This document shows positions 30,564 through 46,888 of a stretch of DNA of 64,000 nt, piece by piece; within the stretch, counting starts at the first letter, position 1, and every line of letters starts with the position of its first letter. A model generated the notes under the pieces. That model was not told where the DNA came from and searched no databases. It saw only the letters and a program-made list of their open reading frames with translations. Source of the DNA: Chthoniobacteraceae bacterium (GTDB lineage Bacteria; Verrucomicrobiota; Verrucomicrobiia; Chthoniobacterales; Chthoniobacteraceae); NCBI GenBank assembly GCA_947479475.1, contig CANJZW010000007.1, positions 1 through 64,000 on the forward strand, read 5' to 3'. Made by a program: the position numbers and the translations under genes.

Positions 30564-31604
30564 ATGGCACAAAAATCAGACGCTACTCCAGACGACAGCA
30601 AGGCAATCGCCGCCCGCAACAAAAACCTCGACCTCGCTCTCCAGCAAATCCACAAGGACTTCGGCGACGGAGCCATCATGCGCCTCGGTTCCGCGCAACA
30701 GATGGACGTGGAAGTCATCCCCACGGGGAACATCCTGATTGACCGCGCACTGGGCGTGGGCGGCTTCCCTCGCGGCCGAATCATCGAAGTCTTCGGGCCC
30801 GAATCCTCAGGGAAGACCACTCTGACACTCACCGTCATCGCCCAAGCCCAGAAACGGGGCGGCCTAGCCGGTTTCATCGACGTCGAACACGCCTTGGATC
30901 CAGCCTATGCTAAAAAGCTCGGCGTCAATGTGGACGAACTTCTCGTCTCCCAGCCTTCCTCTGGTGAAGAAGCGTTGCGCATCTGCGAAACCCTCGTGCG
31001 CTCCAACGCTCTGGATGTCATCGTCCTCGACTCCGTCGCGGCGCTCGTCACCAAGGCGGAACTCGAAGGAGAGATCGGCGACACCACTGTCGGCGCTCAG
31101 GCGCGTCTCATGAGCGCCGCATTGCGCAAACTCACCGCCCTGATTTCCAAGGCCAGCACCGTGGTTATCTTCACCAACCAGATCCGCGAAAAAATCGGCG
31201 TCATGTTCGGAAACCCCGAAACAACGCCAGGCGGCAAAGCGCTCAAATTCTACGCGAGCGTGCGATGCGACATCCGCCGGATCGGTGCCATCAAGAATGC
31301 CGACGGCACCGTCACGGGCAACCGCACGAAGTTGAAAATGGTGAAGAACAAAGTCGCACCTCCCTTCACCGAAGCGGAGTTCGACATCATGTATAACGAA
31401 GGCATTTCGTCCACGGGCGCTTTGCTGGATCTTGCTCTGGAACAGGGCGTTGTCGAAAAACGTGGCTCCTGGCTCTCCTACAAGGGCTCCCAACTTGCGC
31501 AGGGCCGCGATGCCGCCAAGGAAGTCATTAAAAACAACGCCGAGCTCTACGCCGACATCGAAACCGCAGTCAAAGCCAAGCTCGACGAACCCGCCGCCAA
31601 GTAA
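30564..31604 (+). CDS. recA: Recombinase A
   Basis: The product has 346 residues, the usual length. Walker A is GPESSGKTT, preceded by [15 protein letters not shown]; Walker B is [11 protein letters not shown]; and the L1/L2 DNA-binding loops include [20 protein letters not shown] and [12 protein letters not shown]. RecA forms ATP-dependent filaments on single-stranded DNA for recombination and SOS induction. No LexA-type operator was evident to me in the 141 bases upstream. recG follows 77 bases later after a strong hairpin. Confidence 0.98.
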
Positions 31605-33925: not shown

Positions 33926-36673
33926 ATGATGACGAGCGCACAGATCCGCCAAAGCTTTCTCGATTTCTTTCGAGGGAAACAACACACCCTCGTACCCTCC
34001 TCCAGTCTGCTTCCGGACTCCCCCAACCTGCTCTTTACCAACGCAGGGATGAACCAGTTCGTCCCGATTTTCCTTGGCCAGCGCCAGCCCGACGTCACCC
34101 GTTGGGCCTCCGCGACGCCCGCGCTCGACACCCGCGCCGCCGACACCCAAAAATGCATCCGCGCCGGAGGCAAACACAACGATCTCGAAGATGTTGGCTT
34201 AGACACCTACCATCACACCTTCTTCGAAATGCTGGGAAACTGGTCCTTTGGAGATTACTTCAAAAAGGAAGCGATTCAGTGGGCCTGGGAGCTCATCGTT
34301 GAGATCTGGAAATTCCCTCCGCAGCGCCTCTACGCCACGGTTTATCAGCCTGACCCAGCGCTTGGCGACCCCGCTTCCCGCGATCAGGAAGCCTGGGAAC
34401 TCTGGGCGGAACTTTTCCGGAAAGCGGGTTTAGATCCCTCCGTTCACATCGTTAACGGCAACAAAAAGGACAACTTCTGGATGATGGGTGACACCGGCCC
34501 CTGCGGCCCGTGCTCCGAATTACACGTCGACCTCACTCCCTCCGGCGACACAGGAGGCGCTCTCGTGAATAAGGGTTCCGCAGAATGCATCGAAATTTGG
34601 AACCTCGTTTTCATCCAGTTCAACGCCAACCCCGACGGCTCCTTTTCACCGCTCCCAGCCCAGCACGTCGACACCGGCATGGGCTTCGAACGCGTCTGCT
34701 CCATCATCCAGGGGACACGCAACTTTGAAGAATTCAGCAACGTTCGTATTTCCAACTACGAAACCGACGTCTTCCGCCCCATTTTCGACGAACTCGAAAA
34801 ACTCAGCGGCAAACACTACGCCAGCACGTTGCCTCAACAGACGGCAACAGGCCACTATGTGGCTATCACGCCGCAAGAGCAACTCGATGTCGCCTTCCGC
34901 GTGATCGCCGATCACATCCGCACCCTTTCCTTCGCCGTCGCTGATAGCATTCAACCCGGCAACACCGATCGCAACTACGTGCTGCGACGCATCCTGCGCA
35001 GGGCCATTCGTTACGGGCGCATCCTCGGCTTCCGGGAGCCTTTCTTTTATAAACTCGTCCCAGTCCTCTCCCGCACCATGGGAGATGTGTTCCCTGAAAT
35101 ACGGTCCCGGCAAGCTTTTGTGGAGGAAGTCCTCAAACGCGAAGAAGTCGCCTTCAACAAAACTCTCGACCGCGGGATCACCCTTTTCAACGACGAAATC
35201 AACCGCCTTCAGGGTGCCGGTTCCACCGCTGTTTCAGGTGCCTTCGCCTTCCAACTCTACGACACCTCTGGCTTTCCGCTGGACCTCACAGAACTCATGG
35301 CGCGCGAACGCGGCTTCTCCGTGGACACCGCTGGCTTTGAAATCCTCATGGATCAGCAGCGAGCCAGAGCTCGCGCCGCCCAGAAAAAGGAAATCATCGA
35401 ACTCTCTCAAATTGAGACAATCCTCCCCACAAGGTTTGTCGGATACGACGCCCTTTCCACAGCCGCTTCCGTCGTGGAAGTCGTCTCCGTCAAAAACAAA
35501 ACCGCTGTGATTCTGGACGTATCCACCGCCTATGCGGAGATGGGCGGCCAAATCGGGGACTCCGGAGTCCTCGAAGCTGGAGCCGACTACTGGCAGGTCA
35601 CGCACACCACAAAAAGCGGACCCGTCTGGTTACATTTCATTGAGGGCGACCATGCCCCTGCTCTCGGCCAAAACGTTTCTCTTTTCGTCCATACCGATCG
35701 TAGGCGCTCCGTGGAACGGCATCATTCGGTGACGCATCTTTTGCACTGGGCGTTGCATGAGGTTGTCTCGAAAGAAGCCTCTCAAAAGGGCTCCTTTGTT
35801 GGCACGGATAAACTCACCTTCGATTTTTCAAGCGGTCCTCTCTCACAATCGCAACTTCATGATGTGGAGCAACTCGTGAATGAACGCGTACTCGAAAATG
35901 CGCCTGTTTTCTGGCGTGAACTAGAGTTCACTGAAGTTAAAAAAAATCAGGACATTCTTCAATTCTTCGGTGAAAAGTACGGAGACATTGTTCGCGTTGT
36001 GCAGGTCGGAGGAACCTCCGATGGTTTGAACGGTTATTCAATGGAACTCTGCGGAGGCACCCATGTGCGCAGCACCGGCGAGATCGGTCTCTTTCGCATC
36101 GTTTCCGAAGGCGCTGTAGCTGCAGGCATTCGCCGCATCGAAGCTGTTGCAGGCCTGCCCGCCTACCATAGCTCCGTCGCTGAGAACCACCGTCTGAAGG
36201 CACTTGCTGCGCTTGCTGGAAGCCCGCTCTCAGACTTGGAACGGAAAATTGAGACTCTGCTACAAAATCAAAAAGACCTCGAAAAAGCTCTCAAAGCCGC
36301 GCAGCAACGCGAAGCTTCTGTGGCCGCTTCCCGGCTCGTTACCCAGATAGAAACGCTCTCAAACACGCCCGTGATCATCGCGGAAGTCCACGACGTCACA
36401 GGGGAAGCGCTCCAAGACATCGCAGACGCTCTTAAAGGACATTTCGAAGGGGTTGTCTTCCTAGCAAGCGCCCATGCTGAAATTGTTTCCCTCGTCGCCA
36501 CGGTGAGTCCATCTTTCACAGGGCGTTTTGCTGCCGGCAAACTCGTCCAAACCGCCGCTCCCATTGTAAACGGAAAGGGCGGAGGGCGGCCTGACACCGC
36601 ACGCGGAGCAGGTAAAAATTCCTCTGCTATTCCTCAAGCGCTCGCGTCTATCAGGCAGCTTATTTCAGGCTAG
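33926..36673 (+). CDS. alaS: Alanyl-tRNA synthetase
   Basis: The product has 915 residues. Class II motifs appear in the N-terminal catalytic domain (FLDFFRGKQHTLVPSSSL, TFFEMLGNWSFGDYFKKEA, FWMMGDTGPCGPCSELH). The editing domain has the zinc-binding HHSVTHLLHWAL and, later, CGGTHVRSTGEIG. A coiled-coil/C-Ala region with GGGRPDTARGAG completes the chain. The enzyme charges tRNA(Ala). The start could be ATG 33926 or the adjacent ATG 33929. rnc follows 38 bases after the stop on the same strand. Confidence 0.97.
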   Translation: MMTSAQIRQSFLDFFRGKQHTLVPSSSLLPDSPNLLFTNAGMNQFVPIFLGQRQPDVTRWASATPALDTRAADTQKCIRAGGKHNDLEDVGLDTYHHTFFEMLGNWSFGDYFKKEAIQWAWELIVEIWKFPPQRLYATVYQPDPALGDPASRDQEAWELWAELFRKAGLDPSVHIVNGNKKDNFWMMGDTGPCGPCSELHVDLTPSGDTGGALVNKGSAECIEIWNLVFIQFNANPDGSFSPLPAQHVDTGMGFERVCSIIQGTRNFEEFSNVRISNYETDVFRPIFDELEKLSGKHYASTLPQQTATGHYVAITPQEQLDVAFRVIADHIRTLSFAVADSIQPGNTDRNYVLRRILRRAIRYGRILGFREPFFYKLVPVLSRTMGDVFPEIRSRQAFVEEVLKREEVAFNKTLDRGITLFNDEINRLQGAGSTAVSGAFAFQLYDTSGFPLDLTELMARERGFSVDTAGFEILMDQQRARARAAQKKEIIELSQIETILPTRFVGYDALSTAASVVEVVSVKNKTAVILDVSTAYAEMGGQIGDSGVLEAGADYWQVTHTTKSGPVWLHFIEGDHAPALGQNVSLFVHTDRRRSVERHHSVTHLLHWALHEVVSKEASQKGSFVGTDKLTFDFSSGPLSQSQLHDVEQLVNERVLENAPVFWRELEFTEVKKNQDILQFFGEKYGDIVRVVQVGGTSDGLNGYSMELCGGTHVRSTGEIGLFRIVSEGAVAAGIRRIEAVAGLPAYHSSVAENHRLKALAALAGSPLSDLERKIETLLQNQKDLEKALKAAQQREASVAASRLVTQIETLSNTPVIIAEVHDVTGEALQDIADALKGHFEGVVFLASAHAEIVSLVATVSPSFTGRFAAGKLVQTAAPIVNGKGGGRPDTARGAGKNSSAIPQALASIRQLISG

Positions 36674-36711: not shown

Positions 36712-37455
36712 ATGAATCCGTTAGAGGAACGCATTCAGTATAAGTTTCGTAACGCACTGCTTCTTGCAGAGGCTCTAACCCATCCAAGCCTGGGTTATGA
36801 AACGCAGCGCCATCATTTCGACAATCAACGCCTCGAGTTTCTCGGGGATGCCGTTCTACAGCTCATCTTCACCGAGTTTCTTTTCGACTCCTATTCCGAA
36901 CTTCCCGAAGGAGAACTTACCAAACTCCGCGCCAGACTTGTTTCCAGAGACGGGCTCCGTATCAACGCAGAAGCTCTGGATCTTGGGAAATATTTGATGA
37001 TGGGCCGTGGCGAGGAAGCCACTGGCGGCCGCAGCCGCGCGTCTGCCCTTGCTGACGCCTACGAGGCGCTTATAGGCGCCCTCTATCTGGATTCCGACTA
37101 CGTCACCGTGCGCCGCATTGTTCTGACAGAAACTCGCTCCCGCCTTGAAGAACTGATTGTGGAAGACCCTTCTGCCAATCCCAAAGGCCGATTGCAGGAG
37201 ATTCTTCAATCTGTCACTCCCCACAGTCCTATTTACGAAGTGGTCGAACAATTCGGCCCGGAACATATGAAACAGTTCATTTCAAGAATTGTCTGGGAAG
37301 GCGCTGAGTTAGCTCGCGGCTCAGGTCGCAGCAAAAAGGACGCTGAAGTGCAGGCTGCACGGAAGGCGATCGAACTGCGTTCCTGGGAAACCTTGTCCCT
37401 TGTGAATGAAGCCAAGCCAACATCGCCTGCCAACAACCAGGCCGAGAACCTGTGA
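36712..37455 (+). CDS. rnc: Ribonuclease III
   Basis: The product has 247 residues. The catalytic domain holds the signature NQRLEFLGDAVLQLIFTEFL with the metal-binding Glu and Asp, and LADAYEALIGALYLDSDY with the second acidic pair. The C-terminal double-stranded RNA-binding domain runs from PKGRLQEILQ to GSGRSKKDAEVQAARKAIE. RNase III processes rRNA precursors and structured mRNAs. It is followed by the 306-base gap holding the candidate replication origin. Confidence 0.97.
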   Translation: MNPLEERIQYKFRNALLLAEALTHPSLGYETQRHHFDNQRLEFLGDAVLQLIFTEFLFDSYSELPEGELTKLRARLVSRDGLRINAEALDLGKYLMMGRGEEATGGRSRASALADAYEALIGALYLDSDYVTVRRIVLTETRSRLEELIVEDPSANPKGRLQEILQSVTPHSPIYEVVEQFGPEHMKQFISRIVWEGAELARGSGRSKKDAEVQAARKAIELRSWETLSLVNEAKPTSPANNQAENL

Positions 37456-37507
37456 ACAACCTCCCACAAGTCCCAACAACCCTCGCCCCTCGCTCTTTTC
37501 GAGTCGG

Positions 37508-37516
37508 TTATTCACA
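37508..37516 (+). other. DnaA box TTATTCACA
   Basis: Perfect match to the TTATNCACA consensus, in the rnc-cysteine desulfurase gap, direct orientation. Confidence 0.8.
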
Positions 37517-37594
37517 GCCTCTCTTAGGTTGTTGGCCGTTCAAAATCCGCCTTATCATCCGCAAAACAAACGGGATCCCTATTATCTTTGCTAG

Positions 37595-37603
37595 TTATTC
37601 ACA
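37595..37603 (+). other. DnaA box TTATTCACA
   Basis: Perfect match to TTATNCACA, direct orientation, immediately left of the AT-rich stretch. Confidence 0.8.
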
Positions 37604-37653
37604 TTCTTAAGAAGAAGGAGAATGATTTAATTTTTCTCTCTTTCTTAAAGAGC

Positions 37654-37662
37654 TGTGAATAA
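37654..37662 (-). other. DnaA box TTATTCACA (inverted)
   Basis: The plus strand reads TGTGAATAA. This box faces the one at 37595 across the AT-rich stretch. Confidence 0.8.
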
Positions 37663-37782
37663 CTCGCCCCTCGGGCAAATAGCGGCACCGTCTATCTACG
37701 CCTCATTTTAACCTGCCACGATTCACACATCTTCTCTTGGAACCAGCCAGCACCTGAGCGTATGCTGAAAAACTTTCCTCTG

Positions 37783-38934
37783 ATGAGTGCTTCTGACCCA
37801 TTGATCTACCTCGACAACAACGCGACCACAGCCGTGGATCCAGCCGTTGTAGAGGAGATGCTGCCGTTCCTTAACCAATTCTATGGAAATCCTTCCAGCC
37901 CCTATCGGATTGGCAAAATAGCGGCCCAAGCTCTGGAAATCGCCCGTGAACGCGTAGCCATGTTGCTTCAAGCGGAGCCAGTGGAGATCATTTTCACCGG
38001 AAGCGGAACGGAAGCTACGAATGCCGCCATTTATTCGGCCCTGGCTGCAGATCCCGATAAACAGCACATTGTCACAACAAGAGTGGAACACTCTGCGACA
38101 CTGAAAACATGTGAGGTGCTGGCGAAAAAAGGCGTGGAAATCACATGGATCGGGGTTGATTCAAAGGGACAAGTCGATCTCCAAGAGATGGAAAAAGCGG
38201 TACGTTCAGACACAGCTCTACTGAGCGTGATGTGGGCGAACAATGAAACAGGGACAATATTTCCGATTGAAGAACTGACAGCCATCGCTAGGAGCAAAGG
38301 GATTTATTTTCATACCGATGCTGTGCAAGCGGTGGGAAAGGTGCCGGTGAAAGTGGGCAATACAGGAATTCAATTCGCTTCAATCTCAGGGCACAAACTC
38401 CACTGCCCTAAGGGAGTAGGCGCCCTTTACGCAAATAAGAGAGCCAGATTTGTGCCGTTTTTAACCGGGGGAAGCCAAGAAAATGGAAGACGCGCCGGTA
38501 CGCAAAATGTGGCGTCAATTGTAGCGTTCGGTAAAGCCTGTGAGATCGCTCACCAAGAATTAGAGCAGAACAAAAAGAAGGTTCTGTCTCTCAGGGATGC
38601 CTTTGAACAAAGGCTTCTTTCTCGCATTACAGGCGTGGAGGTAAATGGTGACCCGCAGAACCGTCTTCCGAACACCACAAATCTCGCTTTTGAAAATATA
38701 GAGGGAGAAGGGCTGCTCATTCTGTTGGATGAAAACAACATAGCTTGCTCAGCAGGATCTGCTTGTACGGCAGGATCCATCCACCCTTCGCACGTGCTCA
38801 AAGCCATGGGATGTTCCGATAAGAAAGCCAGGGCGAGCCTGCGGTTTTCTTTTTCCCACTTAAACACCGAAGAAGAAACACAAAGGGCTGCCGAAATCAT
38901 CGAAAGCAAAATCACAAAACTGAGGGCTACCTAA
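37783..38934 (+). CDS. Cysteine desulfurase (IscS/NifS)
   Basis: The product has 383 residues. It begins with IYLDNNATTAVDP, has the PLP lysine in SISGHKLHCPKGVGALY and the catalytic Cys in CSAGSACTAGSIHPSHVL. The enzyme moves sulfur from cysteine to Fe-S scaffold proteins or tRNA-modification enzymes. ATG 37783 (MSASDPLIYLDNN) was chosen over an in-frame ATG at 37762 because it is closer to the family start; neither has a strong ribosome binding site. No iscU or iscA follows; recJ starts four bases after the stop, so the two are cotranscribed. Confidence 0.93.
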   Translation: MSASDPLIYLDNNATTAVDPAVVEEMLPFLNQFYGNPSSPYRIGKIAAQALEIARERVAMLLQAEPVEIIFTGSGTEATNAAIYSALAADPDKQHIVTTRVEHSATLKTCEVLAKKGVEITWIGVDSKGQVDLQEMEKAVRSDTALLSVMWANNETGTIFPIEELTAIARSKGIYFHTDAVQAVGKVPVKVGNTGIQFASISGHKLHCPKGVGALYANKRARFVPFLTGGSQENGRRAGTQNVASIVAFGKACEIAHQELEQNKKKVLSLRDAFEQRLLSRITGVEVNGDPQNRLPNTTNLAFENIEGEGLLILLDENNIACSAGSACTAGSIHPSHVLKAMGCSDKKARASLRFSFSHLNTEEETQRAAEIIESKITKLRAT

Positions 38935-38938
38935 AACA

Positions 38939-40645
38939 GTGCTTAACAAAGCCATAGCTCGGTGGGTTTTGCCAGAACCAGCAGCACCTCAACTTGTTCA
39001 AGGTCTTGTAAGCGCCTTGGGACTTCCTAGAATCGTTGCAGATCTCCTTGTCCGCCGCGGATACCAAGAACCCGCCGCCGCCCAACGGTTTCTATATCCC
39101 CGCTTGAATACATTGAGCGATCCATTTTTGTTACCAGACATGGAGATCGCCGTGTGGCGTATTCTTCAGGCCATCGATCAAAAACAAACGATCGTCTTGT
39201 ATGGTGATTACGATGTCGATGGCCTCACTTCCCTGACTCTCTTGCATCGCATCTTGGCTCTCTATCAGGCCGACGTGCATTGTTTTTTACCGCAACGCAA
39301 AGATGAAGGGTATGGTCTGAGTGCTAAAGGTGTAGCCCGGTGCGTAGACGAGTATGCTCCAACCCTGCTGATTGCTATTGATTGCGGCACGTCGTCCGTA
39401 GCTGAAATACAGCAGTTAAAGGATGTTGGTGTAGATGTCGTTGTGCTGGACCATCACGAATGTCCTGAACAGCTGCCGCCGTGTGTCGCCCTTGTGAACC
39501 CGAAAAAGGGACAGGTCTTTCACTATCTTTGCAGTGTTGGAATCGTTTTCAAGGTCGCTCATGCCCTCCTTAAACAGCGGCCAAACGCAGCGGTTCAATT
39601 AAAGGATTACTTAGACCTCGTCGCCTTGGGGAGTGTTGCCGACCTCGTCCCATTAGTTGAAGAAAATCGCGTGTTGGTTCAAAAGGGCCTCGAACAACTT
39701 GCCGTCACAAAGTGGCAGGGAATTAAAACCCTGGCTGAAAAAGCAGGAGTCAAACCGCCGTGGGCTGCCTCAGACGTTGGGTTCAAACTCGGACCGAGAC
39801 TCAATGCGGCAGGGCGCCTGGGAGAGGCGAAACGGGCCTTTCACCTATTAATGAGTGAAAATGAAGTCGACGCTGCGAGCCTTACGGAGGAGCTCGAAGA
39901 AGAGAATCAAAACCGCAAGGTCATCGCGGAAGACGTCTACCAGCTTGCCGAAGCCCAGGTCGCCGAAAAATTTAACATCGTAAAGGACTTCGCAATCGTC
40001 GTTGGCGGAGATGGTTGGCATGAAGGAGTGATAGGGATCGCGGCTTCTAAACTGATGCACAAGTACAATCGGCCGGCGATTGTGATTGGGTTTGACGCAC
40101 AGGGCTGTGGAAAAGGAAGCTGCCGAAGCATCCCCGGGTTTTCGTTGGTCAGTGCGCTGAGATCTTGTGGAGCTTATTTGGAGAAAAGTGGGGGCCATGA
40201 AATGGCGGCTGGCCTCTCAATCCGGCGTGAACAGTTCGAAAACTTTCGAACCGCATTCGTCCGCGAGGCCGGAGAGCTGATCCGCGAGGAAGAATTGACG
40301 CCTCTGATCGTTCCAGATGCCGAGGTACACATTCACGAATTAAATCTGGTCTTGCTCGAACAACTCGCAAAGCTGGGCCCGTTTGGGATCGCTAACGCCT
40401 CGCCAGTATTTTTACTTAGAAATGTATTTCCAGCGGGTCAACCCCGCGTGATGAAAGAAAAACACCTCAGCCTGGAAATCCGGCAGGACAAGGAGACCGC
40501 GCGGGCGATTTGGTTTAACGGCGCGACGGACCCCGTTCCGAAGGCGCCCTGGGATGTTGCTTTTGAGCTCGTCCGAAATGAATACCAAGGCCGCGTGCAG
40601 CCCCAAATTCAAATCCGGGCCCTCCGTTCAGCGGCCGGAACCTAG
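38939..40645 (+). CDS. recJ: Single-stranded-DNA-specific exonuclease RecJ
   Basis: The product has 568 residues, near the typical 550-580. DHH-family motifs are YGDYDVDGLTSL, a central IAIDCGTSS, and VVLDHHECPEQLP; the DHHA1 part holds GSCRSIPGF and SGGHEMAAGLSI. RecJ digests single-stranded DNA 5' to 3' in mismatch repair and RecF-type recombination. The start is GTG 38939, four bases after the desulfurase stop. An OB-like C-terminal part ends with FELVRNEYQGRVQPQIQIR. Confidence 0.95.
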   Translation: MLNKAIARWVLPEPAAPQLVQGLVSALGLPRIVADLLVRRGYQEPAAAQRFLYPRLNTLSDPFLLPDMEIAVWRILQAIDQKQTIVLYGDYDVDGLTSLTLLHRILALYQADVHCFLPQRKDEGYGLSAKGVARCVDEYAPTLLIAIDCGTSSVAEIQQLKDVGVDVVVLDHHECPEQLPPCVALVNPKKGQVFHYLCSVGIVFKVAHALLKQRPNAAVQLKDYLDLVALGSVADLVPLVEENRVLVQKGLEQLAVTKWQGIKTLAEKAGVKPPWAASDVGFKLGPRLNAAGRLGEAKRAFHLLMSENEVDAASLTEELEEENQNRKVIAEDVYQLAEAQVAEKFNIVKDFAIVVGGDGWHEGVIGIAASKLMHKYNRPAIVIGFDAQGCGKGSCRSIPGFSLVSALRSCGAYLEKSGGHEMAAGLSIRREQFENFRTAFVREAGELIREEELTPLIVPDAEVHIHELNLVLLEQLAKLGPFGIANASPVFLLRNVFPAGQPRVMKEKHLSLEIRQDKETARAIWFNGATDPVPKAPWDVAFELVRNEYQGRVQPQIQIRALRSAAGT

Positions 40646-43227: not shown

Positions 43228-44166
43228 TCACACTCCAGAGCTACGCTTTTTTCCCGTCGCCAAAAGTGTCTGAAAAACAGGGTTCTGCTCGTCCCTTGAA
43301 ACCACTTCCGCGTCCACGTCGATAAAACCGGCATCGGATAACAGCCCCCCGAGCTCCGACTCGGTGAATCCCAGCCAAGTGTCGGCGTATAATTCTCGCG
43401 CCTGCTCAAACTGGTGCGCCAAAAGGTCTAGAACGGCCACCTGCCCGCCTGGGCGCAGAATCCGGTGGGCGGCCGCCAAAGCGCGTCCCGGGTTGCTGGC
43501 GTGGTGCAGGGCTTGAGAAAGCAATACAAGGTCCACCGTTTCCGGTTCAATGGGCGGGCTCTCAATATCCCCGAAACGGTATTCCAAATTGTGAATGCCA
43601 TTCTCCCTCGCGAGACTCGCCCCGTACTCCACCATCTTTTCCGAGTTGTCCACCGCGATGACGCGACTAGCCCGCTTTGCCAGCAGTTGAGACAAATGGC
43701 CTTCCCCCGCCCCTAGATCCGCGATCACAAGCGAAGGAACCAGCGTAAACAACATCCGCGAAACACCCTGCCAGGTCCGGCCGGGGCAATAGGTGCGTCC
43801 AAAGCGCCCTGCCATGCGGTTGAAATACTCCCGGCTCAGGTCCGCCCGCTTGCGCCGCACCGCGTCCAAGCCGCGTGCGTCAGACTTGGTATCCGGTAAT
43901 TCCAAGGCCGCTGCGTCCAGCACGCTCCCGACCTCCGGGGGCAAAGCACTGTGATCCACCGCGTAGTAGATGTTTTTTCCAGCCCGACGATCCGTCACCA
44001 AAAGACCGAGGCGCAGCTGGGCGAGATGGGAGGAAATGCGAGACTGGCCCATCCCGAGAATTTCCTGAAGCTCAGCCACCGAGAGTTCCTCTTGGCGCAG
44101 GAGGAGCAGCAGGCGCAGGCGTGTATCGTCGGAAAGGAGGCGGAGAGATTTGAGGATTGACGCCAT
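43228..44166 (-). CDS. ArsR-type regulator fused to a SAM-dependent methyltransferase domain (SahR-like)
   Basis: The product has 312 residues. The first 85 form a winged-helix ArsR domain (LSVAELQEILGMGQSRISSH is the recognition region). From about residue 130 a class I methyltransferase domain follows: VIADLGAGEGHLSQLL (SAM loop), IAVDNSEKMVEY and VDLVLLSQALHHASNPGRAL. SahR regulators of the methionine cycle have this architecture and sense S-adenosylhomocysteine. The gene is divergent from metK-ahcY with 91 bases between, so control of those genes is likely. ATG 44166 (MASILKSLRLLSDDTR) fits the domain; longer starts would run into the shared promoter. Confidence 0.85.
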   Translation of the reverse strand: MASILKSLRLLSDDTRLRLLLLLRQEELSVAELQEILGMGQSRISSHLAQLRLGLLVTDRRAGKNIYYAVDHSALPPEVGSVLDAAALELPDTKSDARGLDAVRRKRADLSREYFNRMAGRFGRTYCPGRTWQGVSRMLFTLVPSLVIADLGAGEGHLSQLLAKRASRVIAVDNSEKMVEYGASLARENGIHNLEYRFGDIESPPIEPETVDLVLLSQALHHASNPGRALAAAHRILRPGGQVAVLDLLAHQFEQARELYADTWLGFTESELGGLLSDAGFIDVDAEVVSRDEQNPVFQTLLATGKKRSSGV

Positions 44167-44186
44167 GGGAAAAAAATACATCCTCC

Positions 44187-44217
44187 CATCATGATGCGTC
44201 AATACATCCGGTGACGC
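44187..44217. promoter_or_regulatory. Candidate operator between the ArsR-methyltransferase gene and metK
   Basis: CATCATGATG (44187-44196) is a perfect 10-bp palindrome. Partly overlapping it, GCGTCA (44196-44201) and TGACGC (44212-44217) form a second inverted pair with a 10-base spacer. Both lie in the 91-base divergent gap, where a regulator would control both directions. Binding is inferred from position and symmetry only. Confidence 0.4.
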
Positions 44218-44257
44218 GTCCTTAAAATCGAGATCTCATCCTATCCAGCCACCCGCC

Positions 44258-45427
44258 ATGTCACGCCGTTACATCTTTTCTTCCGAATCCGTCGGTGAAG
44301 GTCACCCCGACAAAGTTTGCGACACTATTTCCGATGCAATCCTAGACGCCTGTCTGGCGGAGGATCCCCATAGCCGCGTGGCTTGCGAAGTCTACGCGAA
44401 GAGCAATGTTGTTGTTGTCGGTGGGGAAATCACTACCAGCGGCAAACCCGACTACACGACGCTGGTGCGCGAGTCCATTCGCGGGATCGGCTACACGAAC
44501 GATGACGATGTCTTCCATGCGGACAAAGTTTTCATCATGAACATTGTCACAGCGCAGTCCCCGGACATTGCGCAAGGTGTGGACGCTCGCGCGGCCGATG
44601 GCAAAGACACCGCCGAGCAGGGCGCGGGAGACCAGGGTCTGATGTTCGGTTTCGCCTGCAATGAAACCCCGGAACTCATGCCTGCTCCAGTCATGTTCGC
44701 ACACCGCCTGGGCCGGGCCTTAACACACATCCGCAAGAGCGGCGTGGTGAACTGGCTGCGTCCCGATGCGAAGTCGCAGGTCTCGGTAATTTATGAAGGA
44801 CACCGGGTCGTCGGAATTTCCAACGTCGTCATTTCGACCCAACACGCGGAGTCCGTTTCCAACGCGACGCTTCGCTCTTTTCTGATTGATGAAGTCATCC
44901 GCAAAGAGCTCCCTGCGGAGCTTCTGACGGCGGACACGCAGTTCCTGATCAACCCGACTGGCCGCTTTGTCGTCGGAGGACCGCAGGGCGATACTGGGCT
45001 CACGGGGCGCAAAATTATCGTCGACACCTACGGCGGAATGGGCCGCCATGGCGGCGGCGCTTTCTCTGGGAAGGATCCCTCGAAGGTAGACCGTTCGGCC
45101 GCCTACATGGGCCGTTACGTTGCCAAGAACGTCGTGGCCTCGGGCCTTGCAGACCGCTGCGAAGTCCAGTTCGCCTACGCGATTGGATACCCCGATCCCG
45201 TCAGCATTCACATCGACACTTTCGGAACGGCCAAAGTGTCTGAAGAGCGTATTGAAAAGGCGGTAGCCGAGGTTTTCTCCTTCAAACCCGCACAGATCGT
45301 GAAGCAGCTGAATCTGCTGCGCCCGATTTATTCGAAGACCACGAACTACGGTCATTTTGGGAAGAACGATCCGGAAATCACCTGGGAAAACACCGACAAG
45401 GTCGAAGCCCTCAAAAGCGCCGTTTAA
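44258..45427 (+). CDS. metK: S-adenosylmethionine synthase
   Basis: The product has 389 residues. It shows [38 protein letters not shown], and [19 protein letters not shown] followed by [20 protein letters not shown], which carry the methionine, ATP and metal-binding residues. MetK makes SAM from methionine and ATP. It is followed by ahcY after 36 bases, forming a two-gene methyl-cycle operon, and is divergent from a SahR-like regulator. I looked for a SAM riboswitch in the short leader and saw none. Confidence 0.98.
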
Positions 45428-45463
45428 TTTTAGTCGAGACAACTACAAACCGAACAGAATCTT

Positions 45464-46888
45464 ATGCTGACACAAACACAGACCAATTCCGATTTTAAAG
45501 TACGGGATCTTTCCCTCGCTGAATGGGGCCGCAAGGAAATCTCTATCGCTGAGCAGGAAATGCCGGGCCTCATGTCGATCCGCGAAAAGTACGCACCGCA
45601 GCGTCCCCTCGCCGGAGTGCGCATCACGGGTTCATTGCACATGACCATCCAGACCGCCGTGTTGATTGAAACACTGGTTGATCTCGGCGCGCAGGTTCGC
45701 TGGGCGAGTTGCAACATTTTCTCCACACAGGATCATGCAGCCGCAGCCATCGCCGCCGCGGGTGTCCCGGTGTTTGCCTGGAAAGGGGAAACGCTCGAGG
45801 AGTACTGGTGGTGCACCCGCCAGGCGATCACCTTTGCCGACGGCAAGGGACCAGAAATGGTTGTCGACGACGGCGGTGATGTGACCCTGCTCATCCACAA
45901 AGGCTACGAGTTGGAGAACGGAGACGAATGGGTAAACACCGCGTCTTCCAACGTTGAAGAGCAGGTGATCAAGGACCTTCTCAAGGACATGAACCGCGAG
46001 AATCCCCTGCACTGGCATGAAGTGGTGAAGGAATGGCGCGGCGTTTCAGAAGAAACAACGACAGGCGTGCACCGCCTCTACAAGCTTCAGGAGTTGAACC
46101 GGTTGCTTGTGCCGGCTTTCAATGTGAACGATTCCGTCACCAAGTCCAAATTCGACAACCTGTACGGCTGCCGCCATTCGTTGGTGGACGGGTTGAACCG
46201 CGCCATCGACGTCATGATCTCCGGCAAGGTTGCTGTGGTTTGTGGCTACGGAGATGTGGGCAAGGGCTCTGCACAGTCCCTCCGGGGACAGGGCGCCCGC
46301 GTGATCGTCACGGAAGTGGATCCCATCAATGCACTCCAAGCTGCGATGGAAGGTTATGAAGTCACCACGATCGAAGACACTCTCGGCCGCGGTGACATCT
46401 ATATCACGACCACTGGCAACGTGGACGTCATCACCTTCGATCATATGAAGGCGATGAAAGACCAGGCGATCATCGCCAATATCGGCCACTTCGACAACGA
46501 GATCCAGGTGGACATCCTCAACACCGCAGCCGGCGTGACCCGCGTGAACATCAAACCGCAGGTCGACAAATATCGCTTCCCAGACGGTCGCGAAATTTTC
46601 CTTCTGGCGGAAGGCCGTCTTGTGAACTTGGGCTGCGCCACTGGGCACCCCAGTTTTGTAATGTCGGCAAGTTTTTCGAACCAGGTGCTTGCGCAGTTGG
46701 ACCTTTGGAAAAACCGCGACCTGTACAAACCCGCCGTTTATGTCCTGCCCAAAAAGTTGGACGAAGAAGTGGCGCGTCTCCATTTGGAAAAGATCGGCGT
46801 GAAACTCACGACGCTCTCGACCAAGCAGGCGGAGTACCTTGGAGTCGCCCTCGAAGGCCCTTACAAGCCGGAGCACTACCGCTACTAG
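45464..46888 (+). CDS. ahcY: Adenosylhomocysteinase
   Basis: The product has 474 residues. It contains [20 protein letters not shown]-type sequence near residue 55, [19 protein letters not shown], the NAD-binding [20 protein letters not shown] and the C-terminal [10 protein letters not shown], which is diagnostic. The enzyme splits S-adenosylhomocysteine into adenosine and homocysteine, removing the product inhibitor of methyltransferases. The length includes the insertion found in many bacterial forms. It is cotranscribed with metK and ends at a strong terminator. Confidence 0.98.

Follow-up and report, generated by a model that had tools for sequence, protein, structure and literature searches.

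The stretch of about 230 bp that follows rnc in this member of the Chthoniobacteraceae is very probably the chromosomal replication origin, oriC, as judged from its own sequence and from that of its relatives. It carries DnaA boxes held at fixed spacing around a gap of low stability, it keeps this layout independently of the genes that adjoin it, and it coincides with a switch in strand composition. Its membership among oriC elements is well supported, and the arrangement of boxes and gap is distinctive. A first-pass annotation of the window, i.e., the whole 64-kb stretch of DNA that was analyzed, had put the site forward as a candidate origin; the conserved element of fixed spacing, the strand switch at that element and the lack of one at dnaA all uphold the proposal.

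Box cluster and anatomy of the rnc-nifS gap

The features of the region are listed here with their coordinates in the window.

36712..37455, + strand: rnc, ribonuclease III, flanking gene (TIGR02191 above cut-off)
37401-37409, − strand: further box-like match, TCATTCACA
37431..37663, + strand: proposed minimal oriC, the conserved origin element (from alignment A1 and profile R1)
37431..37482, − strand: helically phased degenerate half-boxes, A[TC]AAC every ~10-12 bp (GTTRTT on the − strand)
37451..37459, − strand: DnaA box 0, TTGTTCACA, one mismatch, overlapping the rnc stop codon (37453-37455)
37508..37516, + strand: DnaA box 1, TTATTCACA, exact match
37595..37603, + strand: DnaA box 2, TTATTCACA, exact match, facing the AT-rich gap
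37604..37653, no strand: AT-rich gap flanked by convergent boxes 2 and 3, the proposed DNA unwinding element, 50 bp, 72% A+T
37609..37617, + strand: AAGAAGAAG run, kept within the genus, not a canonical DnaA-trio
37654..37662, − strand: DnaA box 3, TTATTCACA, exact match, inverted, facing the AT-rich gap
37762..38934, + strand: NifS/IscS-type cysteine desulfurase, flanking gene (PF00266; NCBIfam NifS just under cut-off)

Three exact TTATTCACA boxes, two direct and one inverted, span 155 bp downstream of rnc, and their coordinates agree with those first reported, as does the one-mismatch box over the rnc stop. Apart from the three exact boxes, the 64-kb window has no exact TTATNCACA site. The genome as a whole has 62 such sites in 5.07 Mb on 214 contigs, about 0.8 per 64 kb; were they placed at random, about 1e-4 triplets as close as 155 bp would be expected in the entire genome, so that the cluster is indeed unlikely to have arisen by chance. 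Nowhere else in the genome do three boxes lie so close together, and the only other close pair of boxes is found at dnaA (C50:3680/3691). The half-box array overlaps the 3′ end of rnc.

The AT-rich stretch noted earlier proved more pronounced than had been claimed. By nearest-neighbor energy, no other 50-bp segment of the 64 kb is as unstable as positions 37580-37629; these overlap box 2 and the AT-rich gap, and the boxes bracket them. The site has both a box cluster beyond chance and adjacent AT-rich, easily melted DNA, as expected of an oriC, and the latter is found in the relatives as well as in the window.

The AAG triplets at 37609-37617 had been likened to DnaA-trio elements read from the inverted box. 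The run itself is present, but the DnaA-trio reading fails on spacing: published work calls for three or more 3′-NAN-5′ trios on the correct strand, no farther than 16 bp from a box (PMC8287927), and the GAA run, whose polarity suits box 3, starts 27 bp away from it. As a trio run of box 2 it lies on the wrong strand. The longest trio run within 16 bp of box 2 or box 3 in the window is 2, and the family mean within that distance is 2.55, compared to 2.64 in shuffled sequences; a box paired with DnaA-trios, as in the basal unwinding system, was not found at this site. Since the run is conserved across the genus, it may matter in some other way.

The other genes identified in the window include recA (30564-31604), alaS (33926-36673) and recJ (38939-40645). 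Farther along, a gene for a protein with a helix-turn-helix and a SAM-methyltransferase (43228-44202, − strand) is divergent from metK (44258-45427), which is followed by ahcY (45464-46888). A search of the 64-kb window, this region (43228-46888) with metK and ahcY included, turned up no Rfam riboswitch.

Conserved layout and changing neighbors

The first-pass annotation had suggested that the gap be compared in related genomes. The relatives used here were Chthoniobacteraceae and other Chthoniobacterales of the phylum Verrucomicrobiota, and rnc loci were fetched from 30 genomes, our own included. The stretch after rnc aligns as a single element in 29 of the 30 (alignment A1), and the contig of the 30th ends too soon. 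The element is 234 bp long in most of the 29 genomes, despite a mean column identity of 57%. Its parts come in a set order: five half-sites 10 to 12 bp apart, box 1, box 2, the AT-rich gap and the inverted box 3. The A[TC]AAC half-sites begin at element positions 2, 14, 25, 35 and 45 across the 29 genomes, and box 1 occupies the same place in many relatives, +50 to +53 past the rnc stop. Box 2 is among the best conserved columns of the alignment, and at box 3 the motif TGTGAAYAA is kept in most relatives. The distance between boxes 2 and 3 is 50 to 53 bp in all 29 genomes, about five helical turns, and this gap averages 65% A+T, compared to 48% upstream of it. The relatives' boxes are frequently TTGTTCACA or TTATTCGCA, and the layout is therefore better conserved than are exact matches. 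Most family members outside our own genus also have two TGGAAC motifs between boxes 1 and 2. A fixed layout with drifting letters fits the pattern of an ordered protein-DNA complex.

A sequence-only profile built from the element (R1) finds it again in our window at 37432-37663 (E=3e-29) and matches 177 of the 213 genomes of the order, mostly at one site per genome. The profile has no match in the other 36 of the 213, some of which are nearly complete (G066 and G114); laxer filters on a sample of these negative genomes gave weak candidates only, and part of the misses are assembly gaps, as in G024, which is without rnc too. In a phylum-wide sample, R1 matches 33 of 289 genomes, chiefly of the same class. 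In genome G020 the whole element is repeated, four copies in tandem filling some 1.5 kb downstream of rnc (L208:8909-10423, − strand, equivalent to G020:C39:111608-113122), with profile scores of 112, 68, 92 and 94 bits.

The genes around the element differ among families. rnc adjoins it only in our own family (f1) and in some genomes of family f4; elsewhere, the neighbors are a deoxyhypusine synthase-like gene, pyrF, an ABC ATPase gene, homoserine dehydrogenase/lpd, a cyclase/glycosyltransferase pair or mnmG. The start of mnmG (gidA), the classical neighbor of oriC in other bacteria, is about 180 bp away from the element in family f13 (L233:9935-12136 and L234:7867-10067). Even where rnc is the neighbor, the gene downstream of it varies, and in L042 the desulfurase gene sits upstream of rnc. 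One conserved site per chromosome, independent of its neighbors, is the rule in most of the 177 genomes, with G020 as an exception, and the comparison of sequences shows an apparent origin that moves between gene neighborhoods as a unit, with its internal spacing kept.

Strand composition and the position of dnaA

The change of strand composition that had been described at the site is borne out: the best single GC-skew change-point of the 87-kb contig falls at 38,000. The raw cumulative skew of the contig reaches its minimum in a shallow basin between 38 and 46 kb, the lowest value being at 45,756, and skew data of this kind locate a switch only to several kb. Third-codon skew in same-strand genes moves from about −0.43 (recA, recG and alaS) to values between 0 and −0.25, and a shift seen within same-strand genes means that gene orientation is not its cause.

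Skew is weak in many of the genomes compared. In 33 of 41 genomes, GC skew is higher to the right of the element than to its left (Wilcoxon p=1.8e-6), and 16 of 21 genus means show the same difference (p=0.003); at dnaA, taken as a control, 7 of 20 genomes do (p=0.29). The local switch is absent or reversed in 8 of the 41 (G018, G016, G040, G090, G048, G056, G017 and G209). Genus g14 (G097, G040 and G056) has a high-scoring element, yet no local negative-to-positive switch; in G097 the skew is strongly negative on both sides of the element with almost no switch. Either a recent inversion or a moved origin may account for this genus. G042 is ambiguous, with a local cumulative minimum 40 kb off the element. 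With g14 and a few others as exceptions, the element sits at a strand switch, as an oriC should.

The longest assemblies give a wider view, with the element at the skew minimum both in a 3.76-Mb contig (G091) and in a complete genome of another family (G459). In G091, the element is at 75 kb; ahead of it the skew is negative, beyond it mostly positive up to ~2.6 Mb, and after 2.9 Mb negative, and dnaA at 3.58 Mb lies inside the negative arm. G459 is a closed, single-contig genome of 6.4 Mb in which all matches of a polar 9-mer were listed. The 9-mer switches strand near 2.65-3.0 Mb, with the element at 3.03 Mb, and switches back near 5.9-6.2 Mb, diametrically opposite the element; dnaA is at 1.04 Mb. 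In G052, it is at the element (340 kb) that 20-kb samples flip sign, neither rnc (628 kb) nor dnaA (91 kb) marking such a change; the signal is weak and noisy. In G462, a strand maximum near 2.8-2.9 Mb, among the matches listed, fits an origin near 0.4 Mb, which is the position of the element.

In our own genome, dnaA lies on contig C50, a different contig from that of the element, and among the genomes of the order in which both were mapped, none has the element beside dnaA. Where the two share a contig they are 45 kb (G121), 249 kb (G052), 495 kb (G042) or ~2 Mb (G459) apart, and a distant R1 match in G287 lies 33 kb from dnaA. The element is not the kind of origin that adjoins dnaA or dnaN. 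The earlier suggestion of an oriC away from dnaA and beside rnc, offered as a guide for the phylum, thus stands as to dnaA; the linkage to rnc extends to our own family and part of f4, not to the phylum. A stronger box cluster next to dnaA had been named as evidence that would count against the site. What lies upstream of dnaA is a tandem TTATTCACA pair 11 bp apart (L002:3680-3699, G000:C50), with no skew switch. Many relatives have one or two boxes there, 160 to 290 bp before the start of the dnaA frame, and the pair likely serves dnaA autoregulation.

Two reduced, single-contig genomes of 0.9 Mb in the same order (G041 and G050), which we take from their size to be probably Xiphinematobacter-like endosymbionts, have no DnaA match (PF08299, PF00308) and no element; their larger congeners G211 and G212 have both. 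The joint absence was probably one evolutionary event, and it is consistent with a dependence of the element on DnaA.

These observations bear on four other readings of the element. It is improbable that it is a DnaA titration or regulatory site, either datA/DARS-like or an origin-proximal cluster, with the real origin within tens of kb. Titration sites also have DnaA box clusters, and the 38- to 46-kb basin of the cumulative skew, at a resolution of several kb, would leave room for such an origin. However, the least stable DNA of the window lies within the box cluster, no other exact box occurs in the window, and it is the element that is conserved across the order and that follows the skew switch whatever its neighbors. 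datA and DARS sites lie away from the skew switch and are without an unwinding element; the present element follows the switch and has a proposed unwinding element. Still more improbable is an origin at dnaA, with the element serving some other role: the tandem exact pair there is conserved in many relatives, and the origin of Methylacidiphilum infernorum has been placed 250 nt upstream of dnaA (PMC2474590). Against this, the skew switch is absent at dnaA in the 20 genomes compared, dnaA lies inside one replichore in G091, G052 and G459, and the box pair suits autoregulation.

Two local roles are extremely unlikely. A DnaA-controlled promoter or operator for the desulfurase gene or for rnc would suit the place of the cluster, between rnc and nifS and 100 bp ahead of the nifS start, but the downstream gene changes among relatives, neither gene adjoins the element in other families, and a fixed 234-bp layout with an AT-rich core is unlike a promoter. 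We give as little credence to the reading that the 3′ end of rnc carries a structured RNA or a terminator. The single window sequence does fold better than its shuffles (z −4.2), owing to boxes 2 and 3, which form inverted repeats on either side of the gap; the 29-genome alignment supports no base pair, Rfam gives no match to the element, and in other families the element occurs away from rnc.

Comparison with known origins and proposed opening

The element, read as an oriC, has much in common with that of E. coli, a dnaA-unlinked gammaproteobacterial origin flanked by mnmG. Both are compact (~230-245 bp), unlinked from dnaA, and built of high-affinity boxes, phased low-affinity sites and an AT-rich unwinding region, and in family f13 only they share mnmG as a neighbor. 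They differ in that the AT-rich gap is bracketed here by two convergent boxes and lies at one edge in E. coli, and in their flanking genes, with rnc in our own family. Like the element, datA and DARS are intergenic DnaA box clusters; the element differs from them in following the skew switch. With the basal unwinding system of the B. subtilis type it shares boxes beside an AT-rich region and a GAA run of the right polarity for the inverted box; the run lies at least 27 bp from the box here, compared to at most 16 bp in that system (PMC8287927). Within the phylum, the origin of Methylacidiphilum was likewise found by GC skew, and it was placed upstream of dnaA, by 250 nt in V4 and by about 6.6 kb in SolV (PMC2474590; PMC4210602); here the element is far from dnaA or on another contig. 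No oriC description for the order was found in the papers searched (DoriC automatic predictions being outside this scope), and Verrucomicrobiota origins beyond Methylacidiphilum are apparently undescribed in them.

From known DnaA biology we infer how such an origin would work. DnaA would bind the high-affinity boxes 1, 2 and 3 together with box 0 and would fill the phased low-affinity half-sites upstream cooperatively to form an oligomer. The AT-rich 50 to 53 bp between convergent boxes 2 and 3 would then melt, the helicase would be loaded, and upon firing two forks would depart in opposite directions. A broader proposal, which we advance tentatively and consider rather doubtful, is that the order and much of the class Verrucomicrobiae use an unwinding element clamped by convergent boxes at a rigid 50 to 53 bp, fed by half-boxes and without canonical DnaA-trios. 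If true, melting would start from two sides, an opening geometry unlike that of the one-sided E. coli and B. subtilis models.

Pipelines in common use search for the origin beside dnaA. The source of the present sequence is a soil/freshwater verrucomicrobial relative of Chthoniobacter, from a group that has been little studied, and profile R1 would place oriC in most genomes of this abundant, largely uncultured soil and freshwater order. Since the element is shared by most of those genomes and is distant from dnaA, origins in the group can now be located and tested. This would enable growth-rate estimates from read depth and the correct orientation of genomes, as well as tests of how DnaA may open an origin without canonical trios.
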